Part shown: positions 1,775 through 40,339 of the stretch, in pieces
How the letters are laid out: every line of letters starts with the position of its first letter
Position numbering within the stretch: position 1 is the stretch's first letter
From: Candidatus Scalindua arabica
GTDB lineage: Bacteria > Planctomycetota > Brocadiia > Brocadiales > Scalinduaceae
Assembly: GCA_018263435.1 (NCBI GenBank)
Contig: JAANXD010000059.1
Location: forward strand, 402 to 45,233
DNA: 44,832 nucleotides
Direction: 5' to 3'
Made by a program: the position numbers and the translations under genes
Notes under the pieces: generated by a model
Databases searched by the model: none
Told to the model about the DNA's origin: nothing
The model's input: the letters and a program-made list of their open reading frames with translations, nothing else

Positions 1775-3436
1775 ATGTTGAATAAAATTAATCCCACGAA
1801 AACTCAAAGCTGGAAGAATCTCGTCGATCATTTCAAAGAGATGAAGAGTGTTCACATGAAAGATTTATTTGCTGACGATCCTGACAGATTTAATAAATAT
1901 TCCATTAGATTTAATGGGATTCTTGTCGATTATTCCAAGAACATAATAACAGAGGACACACTGAAGCTATTACTTAAATTAACTGATGATGTTGGTTTGA
2001 GAGATGCGCTTAATAAGATGTTCAATGGAGAAAGGATAAATGAGACTGAGGACAGAGCCGTTTTGCATACAGCTTTAAGGAATAGATTAAACATCCCTGT
2101 TTGCGTTAATGATAAAAATGTAATGCCGGAAGTAAATGCTGTTTTAAGTAAAATGAAAGATTTCTCAGATAAAATCATCTCCGGAGAGTGGAAAGGATTT
2201 GCCGATAAGAAGATTACGGATATTGTAAATATTGGTATTGGCGGTTCTGATCTGGGACCCGTAATGGTAACTGAATGTCTGCGGCCTTATGCAAAGGATG
2301 GCCTGGCAGTTCATTTTGTCTCAAATGTTGACGGGACTCATATTACAGAAACCCTGAAACCGCTGAATCCTGAAACCACTCTGTTTCTGATTGCCTCAAA
2401 GACCTTTACAACTCAGGAGACAATGACAAACGCATTTACCGCAAGAGAGTGGTTCCTGAAATGTGCAGAAGATCATGCATACGTTGCAAAACATTTTGTG
2501 GCGTTATCAACAAATATAGAAAAGGTGGAAGAGTTCGGTATTGACAAAGACAACATGTTTGTTTTCTGGGACTGGGTTGGCGGCCGCTATTCACTCTGGT
2601 CTGCAATCGGTCTCTCCATAGCATGCTATATCGGATATGAGAATTATGCTGAATTGCTGCAAGGCGCCTTTGAAATGGACAGCCATTTTAGAGAAACTCC
2701 ATTCGAAAGAAACATTCCTGTTATCCTGGCCTTAATAGGAATCTGGTACAACAATTTCTTTGGTGCGCAGACAGAAGCAATCCTGCCATACGACCAGTAT
2801 ATGCACAGATTTCCGGCATACTTTCAGCAGGGGAATATGGAGAGTAACGGAAAATCTGTGGACAGAAATGGAAACAAGGTAAATTATCAGACAGGCCCAA
2901 TTATCTGGGGGGAACCCGGAACAAATGGCCAGCACGCCTTTTATCAACTAATCCATCAGGGGACAAAGATAATTCCGGCAGACTTCCTTGCGCCCGCAAT
3001 CAGTCATAACCGGATTGGTGAACATCATAACATTCTTTTATCAAATTTTTTCGCGCAGACAGAGGCCCTCCTGAACGGAAAGACAAAAGAAGAGGTTACC
3101 GAAGAGTTGAAAGGGGATGGCATGAGTGATGATGAAATCCGGAAACTGTATCCTCACAAAGTCTTTGAAGGCAACAGGCCGACGAATTCAATCTTGTTCA
3201 GCAAACTTACTCCAAGGGCCTTAGGCAGTCTGATAGCAATGTATGAGCACAAGATCTTTGTCCAGGGAGTGATCTGGAATATCTTCAGTTTTGATCAATG
3301 GGGTGTTGAGCTTGGCAAACAACTGGCAAATAAGATACTACCGGAGTTAGGAGATGATGAACAGGTTGATTCCCACGATTCTTCTACAAACGGACTGATA
3401 AATGTTTTTAAAGATATGAGAGAGTCGTCAAAGTAA
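1775..3436 (+). CDS. pgi: Glucose-6-phosphate isomerase
   Basis: Interconverts glucose 6-phosphate and fructose 6-phosphate in the cytoplasm. At 553 residues it has the length of the long, E. coli-type enzyme. Both signatures are visible: [12 protein letters not shown] near residue 268 and [12 protein letters not shown] near residue 504, as are the substrate-loop motif [10 protein letters not shown] and the active-site stretch [18 protein letters not shown]. An AAGGA sequence stands about 8 bases before the ATG. It follows the UDP-sugar pyrophosphorylase with a 21-bp gap. Functionally it connects to the glk/zwf/pgl/gnd/tkt cluster at 26-34 kb. Confidence 0.97.
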
Positions 3437-6970: not shown

Positions 6971-7704
6971 TAGGGACACATCCCATTTATTCTTGACAAC
7001 AGTTGTATAATTGATATAAATAATGGACCATGCCACGGATCGCAAGGATAGTAGCAACAGAATATCCTCACCACATTGTACAAAGAGGTAACAACAGAGA
7101 AAAAGTCTTTGTCGTAAAAAAAGACTTCGAAAAATACATCTCCCTCCTTGAAAAATATTCTATAGAGAAAAATGTCGTGATACTTGCATACTGCCTTATG
7201 CCAAACCATGTACATTTGCTGGTAAAACCTTTAGGCGAAGACGGTCTATACAAAATGATGCAAGGTACTACTCTTTGTTATACCCAATATTTTAATAAAA
7301 AGAACAAACGAACCGGGCGTCTTTGGGAATGCAGGTATCATTCTTCTATCATTGATGGAGAGAGATATTTATGGACGGTAAGCCGCTATATAGAAAATAA
7401 TCCAGTAAGAGCAGGGCTAGTTAAGAATGCCGAAGACTATCTTTACTCAAGTGCAAGAACCCACATTTTAGGAGAGTACAATACTCTTCTAAATGAGCGA
7501 CTATTTGATGAGGATGAAGAATCCAATTACAAGAGATTTATATCAGGAGGAGAAGATAAGATGAATTTAAGTGATATTAGAAGGCAAACAAGACTAGGCA
7601 AGCCTCTTGGAGACAGAGGATTTTTGGAAACACTTTCTAAAAAGCTAGGTTTCAATTTAGCCTTTAGACCTAAAGGCCGGCCCAAAAAAAGGGATGTGTC
7701 CCTA
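6971..7704 (+). mobile_element. RAYT element 1, bounded by inverted repeats
   Basis: A perfect 14-bp inverted repeat, TAGGGACACATCCC at 6971-6984 and its complement at 7691-7704, bounds a Y1-type transposase gene. The left end continues CATTTATTC, exactly as in the gene-less hairpin at 26276-26358. The element sits between the murD stop and the cca start, and its right repeat lies within the last codons of the transposase gene, 8 bp before the cca ATG. No clear target duplication is visible, as expected for a single-strand (HUH) mechanism. Confidence 0.7.
6993..7020 (+). promoter_or_regulatory. Predicted promoter of RAYT 1
   Basis: TTGACA at 6993-6998, a 16-base spacer, then TATAAA at 7015-7020. 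The start site would fall near 7027, so translation from the ATG at 7030 would be nearly leaderless; no Shine-Dalgarno sequence is visible. The spacer begins with the palindrome ACAACAGTTGT (6996-7006), a possible operator. The promoter abuts the left inverted repeat, so it moves with the element. Confidence 0.42.
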
Positions 7705-7719
7705 TTTAAAAATGACTGA
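7030..7719 (+). CDS. REP-associated tyrosine transposase (Y1_Tnp), RAYT 1
   Basis: A single-strand DNA endonuclease/transposase of the IS200-like Y1 family. The HUH motif is NHVH (His60, His62) in MPNHVHLLVKP, and the catalytic tyrosine is most likely Tyr120 in RYIENNPVRAG. A further conserved segment YSSAR lies near residue 139. The 229-residue length with a C-terminal basic tail (RPKGRPKKRD) fits the common single-domain RAYT type. Known RAYTs cut and join at REP hairpins next to their genes. The stop codon lies 8 bp inside cca, so the two genes overlap. The frame is intact, so it may be active. Confidence 0.9.
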   Translation: MPRIARIVATEYPHHIVQRGNNREKVFVVKKDFEKYISLLEKYSIEKNVVILAYCLMPNHVHLLVKPLGEDGLYKMMQGTTLCYTQYFNKKNKRTGRLWECRYHSSIIDGERYLWTVSRYIENNPVRAGLVKNAEDYLYSSARTHILGEYNTLLNERLFDEDEESNYKRFISGGEDKMNLSDIRRQTRLGKPLGDRGFLETLSKKLGFNLAFRPKGRPKKRDVSLFKND

Positions 7720-17366: not shown

Positions 17367-17487
17367 AAAAAGTTAAAAGTGACTACCCGCCTGCCAATCA
17401 GTTCGGGCAGGAAGTTTGAAGTGAGCTAAAGTTGAGGAATCTATTAACTTTAGGCACTTTAGTTCACTTAAGACACTTCAAACTTTT
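17367..17487. repeat. Palindromic element, gene-less copy A
   Basis: Read on the minus strand it has the left arm AAGTTTGAAGTGTCTTAAGT through GTGCCTAAAGTT and the right arm CAACTTTAGCTCACTTC through CACTTTTAACTTTTT. The arms match those of the four-helix-bundle element at 29386-29868, but about 12 bases replace the gene. The right arm contains the inserted hairpin CCTGCC...GGCAGG (17390-17411). It occupies the tsaD-ctpA gap. Confidence 0.82.
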
Positions 17488-25595: not shown

Positions 25596-25692
25596 AAGTT
25601 TGAAGTGCCTTAAGTGAACTAAAGTGCCTAAATTTAAAAAATATTTTTCCACAACTTTAGCTCACTTCAAACTTTAGACACTTTTAACTTTT
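25596..25692. repeat. Palindromic element, gene-less copy B
   Basis: Left arm AAGTTTGAAGTGCCTTAAGT... and right arm ...CCACAACTTTAGCTCACTTC through CACTTTTAACTTTT match the element at 29386-29868. This copy lacks the GC-rich hairpin seen in the right arm of the other copies. It keeps the CCAC bases that form the start codon of the four-helix-bundle gene in the gene-bearing copy. Confidence 0.82.
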
Positions 25693-25746: not shown

Positions 25747-26277
25747 ATGAAAAATAAAAGATTTTTTGTTCTAATCGTAATGTTTGCCATAACAGGCATA
25801 GTAGCAATGTCAGGATGTTCACGTAATCAGGAGACATTAACCTGGACAGAAGTAATAAGTGATATCAGAGATAAGTACCCTGATGTTAATCAGATCCGGA
25901 CGGATGAGTTATATTCATGGCTGACTGCTCCTGACAGTGAGCCTGCAATTATAATAGATGCCAGGGCAAAGGAGGAATTTTACGTAAGCAATATTACAGG
26001 AGCAATGAATATACCTTATGACAAAGACCCCCTGAAACATCTCACAGACATCAAACCGGACCGCCCAATTGTCGTCTATTGTTCCGTAGGTTATCGTTCT
26101 TCCATCCTGGCAAGAAAATTACAGGACGCTGGTTTTACGAGAGTATACAACCTGGAAGGATCAATCTTCAAGTGGGCAAATGAGGGAAGGCCGCTTGTGC
26201 AAAGCCAGACAACAGTTCACAAGGTACATCCTTATAATGCGCATTGGGGAAAACTGCTTGAGAAGAAATACCATTAA
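25747..26277 (+). CDS. Rhodanese-like lipoprotein
   Basis: A 176-residue exported sulfurtransferase-type protein. Residues 1-24 form a lipoprotein signal with lipobox AMSGC (Cys24). The single rhodanese domain has IIIDARAKEEFYVSNITGAMNIPY and the active-site loop YCSVGYRSS with Cys112. The conserved downstream YNLEGSIFKW is also present. Function could be sulfur transfer or redox sensing in the cell envelope. The stop codon lies inside a hairpin repeat shared with zwf on the opposite strand. Confidence 0.88.
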   Translation: MKNKRFFVLIVMFAITGIVAMSGCSRNQETLTWTEVISDIRDKYPDVNQIRTDELYSWLTAPDSEPAIIIDARAKEEFYVSNITGAMNIPYDKDPLKHLTDIKPDRPIVVYCSVGYRSSILARKLQDAGFTRVYNLEGSIFKWANEGRPLVQSQTTVHKVHPYNAHWGKLLEKKYH

Positions 26278-26358
26278 AAAGGGACACATCCCATTTATTC
26301 CCTTAGAAAACTTTTCCAATCCTACTTGGACTTGTATAAATGGGATGTGTCCCTTTTT
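26276..26358. mobile_element. Gene-less derivative of RAYT element 1
   Basis: Perfect 22-bp arms (26276-26297 and 26337-26358, starting AAAAAGGGACACATCCC) surround 39 bases. The outer sequence and its CATTTATTC extension match the left end of RAYT element 1. It fills the gap between the convergent rhodanese and zwf genes and can form a terminator on either strand. Confidence 0.82.
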
Positions 26359-26362
26359 AAAA

Positions 26363-27942: not shown

Positions 27943-29358
27943 CTACTCCTCCCAGTCAGCATGAAAGGTACCCGGTTTATCAATACGCTCAAAGGTATGC
28001 GCCCCAAAAAAATCCCTTTGTGCCTGAATCAGATTAGCAGGCAAACGTTCGCTGCGGTAAGAATCGTAATATGCCAGTGAAGCGCTCATAGCCGGCATGG
28101 GAATACCTGATTCTATTGCAGTCCGGATAACAAAACGCAATGATTCCTGACGTGTATTTATGGCTTTCTGAAATTCCTCATCTACCAGTAAGTTGGGTAA
28201 GTCTTTATAACGGTTATAAGCATTAGTTATATCATTAAGTAGTCTTGCCCGGATAATACAACCTGCTCTCCAGATTTTTGCAATTGCTCCTAAATCCATG
28301 TTATACCCGTACTCCAAAGACGCTTTTTTAAGCAGACTCATACCCTGAGCATAAGAACAGATCTTGGACACATAAAGCGCATCTCTTGTTGCATCTATCA
28401 ACTTTTGTGAATCACCTTCATACTTTTTTGCAGGACCTGTTAATACACTTGAAGCATGCACACGTTCTTCCTTTTGTGAAGAGATAATACGACCATTAAC
28501 CGCAGCAATAATTGTAGGTATCGATATCCCCAATTCCAGAGCGTTTTCTCCCATCCATCTGCCTGTTCCTTTTTGCCCGGCCTTATCCAATATTACATCT
28601 ACTAATGGCTTACCGGTATCGTCATCAACCTTACTGAAAACTTTTGCTGTTATCTCAATCAGAAACGAGGACAATTCCGCTTTATTCCACTCTGTAAAAA
28701 TTTTGTGAAATTCCTGAGCAGATAGTCCAAGGGCTCGTTTGAGCAAATAATAAGCCTCGGCAATCAGCTCCATGTCACCATACTCAATGCCATTGTGTAC
28801 CATTTTAACATAATGCCCTGAACCTCCGGGGCCTAAATAGGTCACACAGGGTTCCCCATCTTCATCTGCCTTTGCAGCTACCGCATTCATGATAGGTTCA
28901 ACTTCCTTGTAGGCATCTCTGGAACCGCCCGGCATCAGACTTGGCCCCCATAAAGCGCCTTCCTCTCCACCGGAAACACCCATACCAAAGAAATTGAAAC
29001 CCTGAGACTCCAGCTCATTAGCCCGCCGTTCTGTATCAGTGAAAAAAGAGTTTCCCCCATCTATAATCAAATCACCCTTATCTAATAACGGAATGAGTTG
29101 CTGGATAGTAGCGTCGACAGGCGCACCGGCCTTAACCAGCAACATGATCTTGCGAGGGCTTTCCAGTGCATCAACAAATTCCTCTAATGTATATGCAGGC
29201 TTGATATTCTTGCCGGCGGCAGGGCCTGCAATATATTTCTCTGTTGCTTCGGCCGTTCGGTTATAAACAGCAACGCTGTAACCGTTACGTTCAACATTGA
29301 GTACAAAATTCTGTCCCATGACTCCCAGACCTATCAGGCCAAAAACTTGCTTATCCAT
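27943..29358 (-). CDS. gnd: 6-phosphogluconate dehydrogenase, decarboxylating
   Basis: Converts 6-phosphogluconate to ribulose 5-phosphate and CO2. GLIGLGVMGQNFVLN is the coenzyme site near the N-terminus, then IIDGGNSFFTDTERR, GMGVSGGEEGALWGPSLMPGG, and KMVHNGIEYGDMEL, and the C-terminal RDFFGAHTFER segment. The 471-residue length is that of the long, dimeric class. GAGAGGA lies upstream of the ATG. It sits between pgl and zwf, with a mobile palindromic element inserted on its upstream side. Confidence 0.97.
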   Translation of the reverse strand: MDKQVFGLIGLGVMGQNFVLNVERNGYSVAVYNRTAEATEKYIAGPAAGKNIKPAYTLEEFVDALESPRKIMLLVKAGAPVDATIQQLIPLLDKGDLIIDGGNSFFTDTERRANELESQGFNFFGMGVSGGEEGALWGPSLMPGGSRDAYKEVEPIMNAVAAKADEDGEPCVTYLGPGGSGHYVKMVHNGIEYGDMELIAEAYYLLKRALGLSAQEFHKIFTEWNKAELSSFLIEITAKVFSKVDDDTGKPLVDVILDKAGQKGTGRWMGENALELGISIPTIIAAVNGRIISSQKEERVHASSVLTGPAKKYEGDSQKLIDATRDALYVSKICSYAQGMSLLKKASLEYGYNMDLGAIAKIWRAGCIIRARLLNDITNAYNRYKDLPNLLVDEEFQKAINTRQESLRFVIRTAIESGIPMPAMSASLAYYDSYRSERLPANLIQAQRDFFGAHTFERIDKPGTFHADWEE

Positions 29359-29385: not shown

Positions 29386-29868
29386 AAGTTTGAAGTGACT
29401 AAAGTGATCTAAAGTGCCTAAAGTTAATGTAATATGATCTCTTAATTGGCTCACTTCTTCCCAATAGACGTAAAAATAGCAAGTAATTCACTGCACTCTT
29501 CATAGTCTGATTTTACTTTTTCCCAGGATAACCATTTCGCCTCTACAATTACTTCTATCCAATATTGAGTTTCACTCGCTTCACTCTCACATATTTTAAT
29601 CTTGTTTTTGAAATCTGGCTTACTTCTTGCTCGATTAGATTCTCGATAATTTGCTCCAATAGAAGTTCCGGATTTTGTGATCTGATTTCTTATAACCCTG
29701 CCCTCAGGTGTATTGGGTAAAGCTGTTGATAAACGTATAGCATTCACCGCAAATTTACGCGTGCGTTTTTCAAGCTCTTTAGAAAATTCTTTGTTATCCA
29801 CAACTTTAGTTCACTTTAAACTTCCTGCCCGAACTGATTGGCAGGCGGGTAGGCACTTTTAACTTTTT
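29386..29868. mobile_element. Palindromic element carrying a four-helix-bundle gene (copy C)
   Basis: The left arm (29386-29426, AAGTTTGAAGTGACTAAAGT through AAAGTTA) and the right arm (29801-29868, CAACTTTAGTTCACTTT through CACTTTTAACTTTTT) are the same arms found directly adjacent in copies A, B and D. The gene between them (29451-29801) is complete, and its GTG start abuts the right arm. The right arm holds a separate hairpin CCTGCC...GGCAGG (29824-29845). It lies between pgl and gnd. Confidence 0.75.
29451..29801 (-). CDS. Four-helix-bundle protein (S23 / bAvd-like family)
   Basis: A 116-residue, basic, helical protein. It has the family pattern RTRKFAVNAIRLSTALP, then SGTSIGANYRESNRARSKPDFKNKIKICESEASETQYWIEVI. 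This family includes proteins encoded in 23S rRNA intervening sequences and the accessory protein of diversity-generating retroelements; it is thought to bind nucleic acid. The start is GTG at 29801. It interrupts the pgl-gnd gene order within a palindromic element and carries no transposase motif. No rRNA is nearby. Confidence 0.85.
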   Translation of the reverse strand: MDNKEFSKELEKRTRKFAVNAIRLSTALPNTPEGRVIRNQITKSGTSIGANYRESNRARSKPDFKNKIKICESEASETQYWIEVIVEAKWLSWEKVKSDYEECSELLAIFTSIGKK

Positions 29869-29925: not shown

Positions 29926-30681
29926 TTAAGGGAACATAACTTCTCTTGCGTTTTTATTGATTAAAACCATAGCTTCAGAATCCAACATCCAGTGAATCGT
30001 ACCGTTTTCAGGATTGATCATGGATGCAGGAAATTCTTTAGCAGGTTGTTTAATACTTATTATGCGCTGGACAATTTCTGACTTGGACCTCCCGGAAGCA
30101 AGAAATAAAACCTCCCTGGCCGCATTAAGTACAGGGAATGTCAAGGTCACACGCCATGTATCCAAACCTGAAACAAAGACGGCAACCGTATACAGCTTAC
30201 ATTCTTCAACCGCATCTGTACCAGGAAAGAGTGAAGCGGTATGACCGTCTTCCCCTATCCCAAGCAATATTATATCAAAACACGGTGAATCTTCTTTAAA
30301 ATGGTTATGCAGTAACTCCGCATACTCCTGGGCTGCCTGCTCAGGCGCAACTTCTCCCCGAATCCTATGTACATTACCATCCGGTATCCCGACGTGATCA
30401 AGAAGCGTTTCCTTAGCCATCCTGAAATTACTATCCTCATGCTCCGGAGGAACCATTCGTTCATCACCCCAGAAAAGATGAAGCCTGTCCCAATCCACAC
30501 GATCCCGGTAAGTACTCTCGGCCAGCATTGAATATATTTCACGAGGAGTGTTGCCGCCAGCCAATGCCATATTACACAAACCTCTCTCCTGTATAGCCTG
30601 TCCAATTTCATTAACAACCCGCTCTGTAGTTGCGGTTACCATTTTCTCTTTATTTGGATATACGTGAATATTCCTTTTCAT
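29926..30681 (-). CDS. pgl: 6-phosphogluconolactonase
   Basis: Hydrolyses 6-phosphogluconolactone. The 251-residue protein has ALAGGNTPREIY near residue 40, the family motif LFWGDERMVPPEHEDSNF, and LGIGEDGHTASLFPG. These distinguish it from glucosamine-6-phosphate deaminase. It lies in the cluster between tkt and gnd; both flanking gaps are filled with palindromic repeats, which may uncouple the genes. Confidence 0.95.
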   Translation of the reverse strand: MKRNIHVYPNKEKMVTATTERVVNEIGQAIQERGLCNMALAGGNTPREIYSMLAESTYRDRVDWDRLHLFWGDERMVPPEHEDSNFRMAKETLLDHVGIPDGNVHRIRGEVAPEQAAQEYAELLHNHFKEDSPCFDIILLGIGEDGHTASLFPGTDAVEECKLYTVAVFVSGLDTWRVTLTFPVLNAAREVLFLASGRSKSEIVQRIISIKQPAKEFPASMINPENGTIHWMLDSEAMVLINKNAREVMFP

Positions 30682-32960: not shown

Positions 32961-33080
32961 AAGTTTGAAGTGCCTTAAGTGAACTAAAGTGACTAAAGTT
33001 AAAAAAAAATTTCACAACTTTAATTCACTTCAAACTTCCCGCCTAACAAACTGGCGGGCGGGTAGACACTTATAACTTCT
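32961..33080. repeat. Palindromic element, gene-less copy D
   Basis: The arms match copies A-C (AAGTTTGAAGTGCCTTAAGT... and CACAACTTTAATTCACTTC...). The hairpin in its right arm is CCCGCC...GGCGGG (33038-33058) where A and C have CCTGCC...GGCAGG, so the change is compensated in the stem. It occupies the glk-tkt gap. Confidence 0.82.
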
Positions 33081-34139: not shown

Positions 34140-34306
34140 CACGAAATTCGAATATTGAAACTCGAAACAAACCAGAAATTCAAATCTTCAAATGTCCCAA
34201 ACCAGAGACTATTTGCACACCGAAATCTTTTTGTTTTGAATTTAGGATTTTTGTCATTTGACATTGTTTCGGGTTGCGTGCTTCGTGTTTCGAATTTTAC
34301 TAAAGA
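34140..34306. repeat. ATTCGAA-type degenerate inverted repeat
   Basis: Words such as ACACGAAATTCGAAT, ACTCGAAACAAACC on the left and GTTTCGGGTTGCGTGCTTCG, TGTTTCGAATTTTA on the right pair imperfectly around a unique centre. Same style as 16095-16240. It separates glk from the FGE-like gene. Confidence 0.5.
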
Positions 34307-39988: not shown

Positions 39989-40339
39989 CTACTTTGATTT
40001 TTCAAGGATAGCAGATAATATCTTTTTTAACTCAGTGGCCTCATTAGAAAGCTTGTTTCCTTCCTCCATGTATTCTTCACTATTTGTTTCAACTATCAGT
40101 CTTAGCCAATATGCAGATTCTTTTGCTTCTTTACGAGATATCTTTATCCTCATAATAAAATCCTTTTTACTTAAAGCTTCATTTGCTTCAATGTAGTTTG
40201 CACCAACAGATCCAGAAGACCTTACTACTTGTTTTCCATATTCCATGTTAGAAACTGTTCTGGGGGATTTCTTAACATATAGAGAAACATTTTTAGCAAA
40301 CTGGAATGTTCGTTCTTCTAAGTCATATTGTTTGGGCAT
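39989..40339 (-). CDS. Second four-helix-bundle protein (S23/bAvd-like)
   Basis: A 116-residue helical protein with EERTFQFAKNVSLYVKK, SSGSVGANYIEANEALSKKDFIMRIKISRKEAKESAYWLRLI. It is clearly related to the protein at 29451 but divergent. Its flanks are AT-rich repeats (AACAAACAAATTCCAATT upstream, AATTTGTAATTTATTTGTC downstream) of the type found alone at 16095-16240. It sits between DUF456 and the FAD reductase genes without rRNA nearby. Confidence 0.85.
   Translation of the reverse strand: MPKQYDLEERTFQFAKNVSLYVKKSPRTVSNMEYGKQVVRSSGSVGANYIEANEALSKKDFIMRIKISRKEAKESAYWLRLIVETNSEEYMEEGNKLSNEATELKKILSAILEKSK

Follow-up and report, generated by a model that had tools for sequence, protein, structure and literature searches.

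The pentose-phosphate gene cluster of the anammox-type planctomycete Candidatus Scalindua arabica raises the question of how a small gene for a four-helix-bundle (4HB) protein, enclosed by two inverted arms, came to lie between gnd and pgl, and how the same arms came to lie without the gene at three other places nearby. The window analyzed is a stretch of 44,832 nucleotides (contig JAANXD010000059.1), in which the cluster reads zwf, gnd, the element, pgl, tkt, a gene-less copy and glk. The four copies named in a preliminary description of the window were confirmed by the inverted pairs I1 (95 nt, 92%), I3 (43 nt, 93%) and I4 (42 nt, 95%), and the direct repeat families D2 and D3 also link them (Table 1). 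The enclosed gene had been described as S23/bAvd-like, an identity supported by profile matches above cut-off to PF05635 (E 3e-19, 69.5 bits, cut-off 33.8) and to TIGR02436 ‘four helix bundle protein’ (E 4e-24, 85 bits, cut-off 24). This is the single ORF between the arms; an ORF and profile scan found no transposase or recombinase in that interval, in agreement with the earlier view of an element without a recognised transposase.

Table 1. Features of the element, its gene-less copies and a second 4HB gene in the window (arms named in the sense of the gene)
Feature	Position	Strand	Remarks
Gene-less copy, interval between tsaD and S41 peptidase gene	17367-17487		Holds palindrome 17386-17411
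Gene-less copy without GC palindrome	25596-25692		
Full element, arm + 4HB gene + arm	29386-29868	-	Between gnd (27943-29358) and pgl (29926-30681)
3' arm	29386-29428		Words AAGTTTGAAGTG-ACTAAAGTG-ATCTAAAGTG-CCTAAAGTTAAT; inverted pair I3
S23/TIGR02436 4HB gene	29451-29801	-	116 aa; GTG start within inner end of arm
5' arm	29797-29868		Words AAAAGTTAAAAGTGCCTA-GC palindrome-AAGTTTAAAGTGAACTAAAGTTGTGG; inverted pair I1
GC-rich palindrome CCTGCCCGAACTGATTGGCAGGCGGG nested in 5' arm	29824-29849		Missing from orthologous G002 copy
Gene-less copy, interval between tkt and glk	32961-33080		Holds palindrome 33038-33062
Second 4HB gene of the window	39989-40339	-	Weaker arms, AAATTCCAATTAC words; arm score 24, just below threshold

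The predicted model of the window 4HB protein (pLDDT 97) consists of four helices and best matches the S23 proteins 2rld and 2gsc (TM 0.84-0.90), followed by the Avd proteins 4dwl and 8ub7 (TM 0.73-0.76); profile comparison with 2rld gave an E value of 5e-30. Neither catalytic residues nor a partner enzyme were found for this protein, and enzyme activity would not be expected from the fold. Avd forms a pentameric ring. A pentameric ring is also given for the S23 protein of Xanthomonas, as cited in PMC4990558. In addition to the gene described earlier, the window holds a second 4HB gene with its own vocabulary of words.

In a BLAST search with the arm consensus, 49 pieces were found in the 2.69-Mb genome, with one gene-bearing copy. 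The consensus was present in 17/17 family-level genomes and nearly silent in most other families of the order, and the window 4HB gene or a fragment of it (at least 75% identity) was present in 8 of the 17, several with stops. Most copies, and many genomes, are therefore gene-less. Arms occur both with and without the gene, and gene-bearing copies with the same arms were found at other sites in other genera and phyla, so that the first pattern named as refuting in the preliminary description, arms beside unrelated genes only, is not the one observed. The proposal that gene-less copies retain bases of the gene start beside the arm held only in part: TAAAGTTGTGGA, which contains the GTG start, was present in 29/56 gene-less loci, but these inner bases are mostly arm sequence and longer gene remnants were seen in only 5/56, and the reading of every gene-less copy as a keeper of the gene start was rejected. 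Derivation of gene-less copies from a full unit, as originally suggested, was borne out between gnd and pgl in two related genomes, where the gene-less copy of G010 keeps the 3' end of the gene, with the joint at GGTTCACTT, and the copy of G005 is truncated; judged by their sequences, both are in-place deletion derivatives of the full element. The gene-less copies of the window are more stably folded than their dinucleotide-shuffled versions (z -3.6 to -4.7), and the CGGATTT vocabulary described below likewise has gene-less copies in the window genome. At locus L318 a 182-nt gene-less hairpin with matching words is inserted inside a 4HB gene, indicating that gene-less copies also move. Internal deletion is thus the evident origin of gene-less copies, which then spread as well. 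Copies A, C and D have a separate GC-rich palindrome nested within one arm (29824-29849, 17386-17411 and 33038-33062) that is missing from copy B, and copies in G009 have a different GC-rich palindrome, CCTTGCCTACCGGCAGGCAGG, at another arm position. This nested palindrome gives the impression of a second mobile palindrome, of very small size, with these elements as its targets.

Empty orthologous intergenic sites, which the preliminary description had proposed to look for, were found at tkt-glk, tsaD-S41, gnd-pgl and several cyanobacterial plasmid loci, with polarity inferred from outgroups. Between gnd and pgl the same element is present in G002, with a 34-53-bp intergenic region in G011, G012, G007 and G006. 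Between tkt and glk a 48-bp empty site is present in the genus members G003, G005, G006, G007, G011 and G012, the site being filled in the window genome and G009 and occupied by a degenerate copy in G002. Between tsaD and the S41 gene an empty site of 61-79 bp is present in G011, G002, G004, G006, G007, G008 and G010, and the site is filled in the window genome, G009 and G003. At the site of the remaining gene-less copy, G009 has half an arm and a different word array. G011, with a transketolase 96% identical, is empty at three sites that are filled in the window genome (G000). Filled forms common to G000 and G009 make recombination between species likely. Target duplications were sought at the Brocadiales sites and none was found; the flanks are too diverged. 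Other inserts were also observed. A gene-less inverted word array with the vocabulary CGAAATTCGAA / TTCGAATTT lies between glk and the next gene (34141-34306) and is present in G002 and absent in G011. In L157 (G002) the orthologous 4HB gene is split by an insert at 2910-3017 that has CCCTGTTAAATA...TATTTAACAGGG as its ends, and a related insert cuts a 4HB fragment in L007.

Finished cyanobacterial plasmids carry inserts of approximately 0.42-0.5 kb, consisting of arms and 4HB gene only, that are absent from near-identical plasmids. An arm-4HB-arm insert of 418/404 nt in Trichormus plasmid C and a Scytonema plasmid is missing from Nostoc linckia, Aulosira and others, in which the flanks are approximately 98% identical. 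The junctions read AAAAAGTAAT/AAATCAG...TTCTTT/GTAATTAAC compared with AAAAAGTAATTAAC at the empty site, corresponding to a clean 5-bp duplication, GTAAT, for the 418-nt insert. At a second site, in Nostoc, TTCTA is compatible with a duplication but resembles the words themselves. In four further filled/empty pairs (RNR genes, cas10-cmr3, an integrase operon and a plasmid operon) the insert again comprised arms plus gene, with bases replaced at the site and no clear duplication, and a fifth further pair also gave no clear duplication. Among the insertion sites examined, a clean target duplication was present at one only. These sequence comparisons show that arms and gene move together as one block, from site to site and also between genomes and between phyla.

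The association of arms with 4HB genes in general was surveyed for 80 such genes in 39 related genomes, with 144 ORFs from the same stretches as controls. A gene was scored as armed when its arm-pairing score, a simple alignment score, reached the 99th percentile of shuffled sequences; most of the named relatives are metagenome-assembled genomes. Inverted arms were present around 62/80 4HB genes compared with 4/144 control ORFs and approximately 1% of shuffles, and detectable arms were absent for 18/80. The preliminary description had held that homologues fixed in position without arms would mark the association as accidental, and the preponderance of armed genes is not of that kind. All six full 4HB genes of the window genome are flanked by arms, and each distinct 4HB type among them has different words (vocabularies CGGATTT, GGGTTACA, TTATTTGTTA and AATTCCAATT). 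Arms are composed of degenerate words of 6-10 nt. A simple count of 73 copies of the window clade gave 50 that were cleanly inverted, 3 in which the two arms shared one direction, and 20 with words on one side or neither. Pairing was stronger within an element than across elements (median 47 vs 38, p 7e-8), with an arm's own partner ranking first in only 7/50 elements, indicating that complementarity is maintained, but loosely. The cyanobacterial plasmid 4HB genes with inspected flanks, picked from the hit list, all adjoin word arrays, one of these in direct orientation and one mainly one-sided. The arrays flanking cyanobacterial 4HB genes presumably resemble the published STRR1-3 units.

Comparison across phyla indicated what the words follow. 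The window protein is 66-90% identical to products of genes in Nitrospirae, Desulfobacterota (Deltaproteobacteria), Planctomycetota (Phycisphaerae), KSB1 and Bacteroidota, and these homologues have the same AAAGTGnCTAAAGTG words at unrelated sites, with AAAGTG-nCT-AAAGTG words repeated in new orders in their flanks. At least two AAAGTG/TAAAGT words were present in 84% of 220-nt window-clade flanks vs 7.6% of windows 1.1-1.3 kb away. For 58 armed genes, similarity of vocabulary was correlated with protein identity (Mantel r 0.54, permutation maximum 0.16), and this was also the case after pairs at the same chromosomal site were dropped (r 0.41, maximum 0.14). Pairs of at least 60% identity located at different sites had a mean k-mer Jaccard value of 0.156, compared with 0.033 for those below 45% identity and 0.036 for 4HB pairs below 45% identity that share one genome. 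The vocabulary is evidently inherited with the protein clade and not with the host, although the same tracking is expected if words and gene are simply co-inherited, and taken alone it is no proof of recognition. Between the window and Nitrospirae copies dS is 0.61 at 89-90% amino-acid identity, and the median dN/dS over 70 pairs is 0.067, values that show purifying selection on the 4HB gene and indicate recent transfer across phyla of a functional gene together with its arms. When word and gene co-occurrence was sampled phylum-wide, the gene clade was found in only one sampled genome (12 word hits), with 1 hit in the other 293. No relative was present in viral contigs and phage records gave two weak hits, so that carriage by phage is unlikely for this clade.

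The explanation considered probable for these data is a minimal selfish mobile cassette of approximately 0.4-0.5 kb with a single 4HB gene, the product of which reads words and recruits an outside enzyme. Such a cassette would consist of two arms of degenerate words, normally inverted, and one strand would form a long hairpin with the 4HB gene in its loop. A ring-like 4HB oligomer, comparable to the S23 and Avd relatives, would recognize the array of its own words when the arms are folded, be it in single-stranded DNA or in RNA, and would recruit an enzyme encoded elsewhere, leading to insertion of the cassette. Candidate enzymes are Y1 transposases, with 18 matches in the window genome, or, by analogy with Avd, a reverse transcriptase. 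Gene-less hairpins with matching words would be moved in trans by the 4HB protein of the same vocabulary, words would multiply via slippage, and the stem would allow the cassette to be tolerated in operons, in rRNA (the classical intervening sequence, IVS) or in frame inside coding genes. Recognition of its own words by the 4HB protein, and movement driven by that protein, are steps that we infer from the sequence comparisons.

Insertions within transcribed units were also observed. In CRISPR operons (L281, L321 and L283) 4HB elements occur in the order cas6-4HB-cas4, in two genera with different words, and cas10-4HB-cmr3. These look like insertions, and insertion of this kind may explain reports of the 23S rRNA IVP as CRISPR-linked (PMC10910872). 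Three Brocadiales species (L038, L039 and L040) share the site of a 4HB element within a DNA-methyltransferase-like gene, where the element keeps the reading frame of its host: no stop interrupts that frame over 158-166 aa, across both arms and the 4HB gene, which is itself overprinted in a different frame. The same host gene has additional gene-less word hairpins, also in frame, and the words at the shared site differ in L039.

Such positions bear on the alternative of an RNA-level element, as in the 23S IVS, in which RNase III cuts the stem, insertions in the transcript are harmless and the protein acts on RNA and not on mobility. The anatomy of the Coxiella IVS is alike, comprising heptamers, an S23 ORF and a terminal stem of 28 bp (PMC4990558), and the insertions inside operons, together with the in-frame insertion in the methyltransferase-like gene of three species, are as expected for this alternative. 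It accounts for tolerance, however, and not for dispersal; many copies lie between separate genes, and gene-less copies also need an insertion mechanism. It is considered unlikely. Also quite unlikely is trans-mobilization, in which an outside Y1/RAYT-type transposase moves the folded arms like REP elements and the 4HB protein is a passenger or accessory. Two of the Y1_Tnp matches lie within the window, and the stable folding of the arms, including the gene-less copies with the z values given above, suits such mobilization. A Y1/RAYT-like transposase gene at 7030-7719 is flanked by its own inverted repeats, AAATAGGGACACATCCC, and a gene-less hairpin of this repeat is located 19 kb away at 26274-26360, so that a system of this type, separate from the 4HB element and likewise composed of gene plus gene-less copy, is present in the genome. 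Against this, the vocabulary in different phyla goes with the 4HB clade, irrespective of the host and its transposases, and in all phyla seen the arms enclose a single gene, the conserved 4HB gene, on which purifying selection is strong. The clade-specific vocabulary weakens the reading that all movement is by a transposase acting in trans.

A passive model, in which slippage-prone word arrays expand by themselves and 4HB genes enter by recombination between arrays, is very improbable. The resemblance of arms to reshuffled words, the large excess of gene-less arrays over genes and the description of heptamer repeats of Beggiatoaceae and cyanobacteria without any gene (PMC4679880) are in its favor, yet no word array is present at empty sites before insertion, arms and gene enter as one insert, in the cleanest case accompanied by a 5-bp duplication, and each vocabulary is tied to one protein clade. 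The remaining idea, that the arms are operators or terminators regulating the 4HB gene (for example in toxin-antitoxin-like autoregulation) and not mobility ends, would fit the binding-site-like repeated words beside the start codon but is hardly tenable, being largely refuted by the empty-site comparison, in which the insert begins and ends with the arms, and arms moreover flank the gene on both sides and mostly occur without it.

No common cause has been stated for S23 genes, cyanobacterial heptanucleotide repeats and TAACTGA repeats, each a puzzle in its own right, and the comparison suggests that all three belong to one kind of mobile cassette present in at least six phyla. A broader proposal, which is offered tentatively and may well not hold, is that S23/4HB proteins are word-specific nucleic-acid binders defining a class of transposase-less mobile hairpins, each clade moving its own words only, with rRNA IVS, cyanobacterial heptanucleotide repeats and TAACTGA-type repeats as products. 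If true, the only gene of a mobile element would be a non-enzymatic four-helix bundle, and both a large class of intergenic repeats and the ‘four helix bundle protein’ annotations in operons, CRISPR operons included, would be accounted for. The matching of words to clade turns the old question of the role of the S23 protein into one directly testable through binding.

No description of dispersed S23 cassettes was found in the open-access PMC literature, and the element shares features with several known systems. MacGregor (PMC4679880) described TAACTGA heptamer repeats in Beggiatoaceae, Cyanobacteria and Bacteroidetes with ‘no mechanism evident’ and speculated on a repeat-binding protein as a possible mobile element; no 4HB/S23 gene is mentioned there with these repeats, and a 4HB gene at L048 has two occurrences of TAACTGA in its arm. 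Like these and the cyanobacterial heptanucleotide (STRR-type) repeats, the arms consist of degenerate 7-nt words in intergenic arrays that are patchy across phyla. The fold is that of Avd from diversity-generating retroelements, and the Pfam resemblance has been noted previously (PMC10053308); between the arms and among the ten window proteins scanned there was no reverse transcriptase or template repeat. Dispersed palindromes together with gene-bearing full units recall REP/REPIN and RAYT, except that the gene between the arms encodes a 4HB protein and not a Y1 transposase. MITEs are likewise short elements with terminal inverted repeats and internal deletions located between genes, and the 5-bp duplication in one case is similar; the parent here, however, encodes no transposase and the arms are reshuffled words and not fixed terminal repeats. 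The closest likeness is to the 23S IVS of Coxiella and Leptospira, a unit of approximately 0.43 kb with complementary ends as a stem and one S23-family ORF in the loop. In Coxiella the 428-nt unit has a 28-bp terminal stem and, ahead of its S23 ORF, two to three GACAGAT heptamers that vary among strains (PMC4990558), comparable to the words near the ORF here. The IVS had already been proposed to be mobile (Burgin 1990; Ralph & McClelland 1993, as cited in PMC4990558), and horizontal transfer is presumed for it. The 23S gene of the window genome was recovered as one match of 3,029 nt, in which there is no insert of IVS size. Unlike the 23S IVS, the cassettes occupy intergenic, operon and coding sites, the window element itself lying between gnd and pgl, and have many gene-less derivatives, clade-specific vocabularies and empty sites. 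On these comparisons the cassettes are grouped with the IVS, with a range far beyond that described and a putative protein-to-word code.
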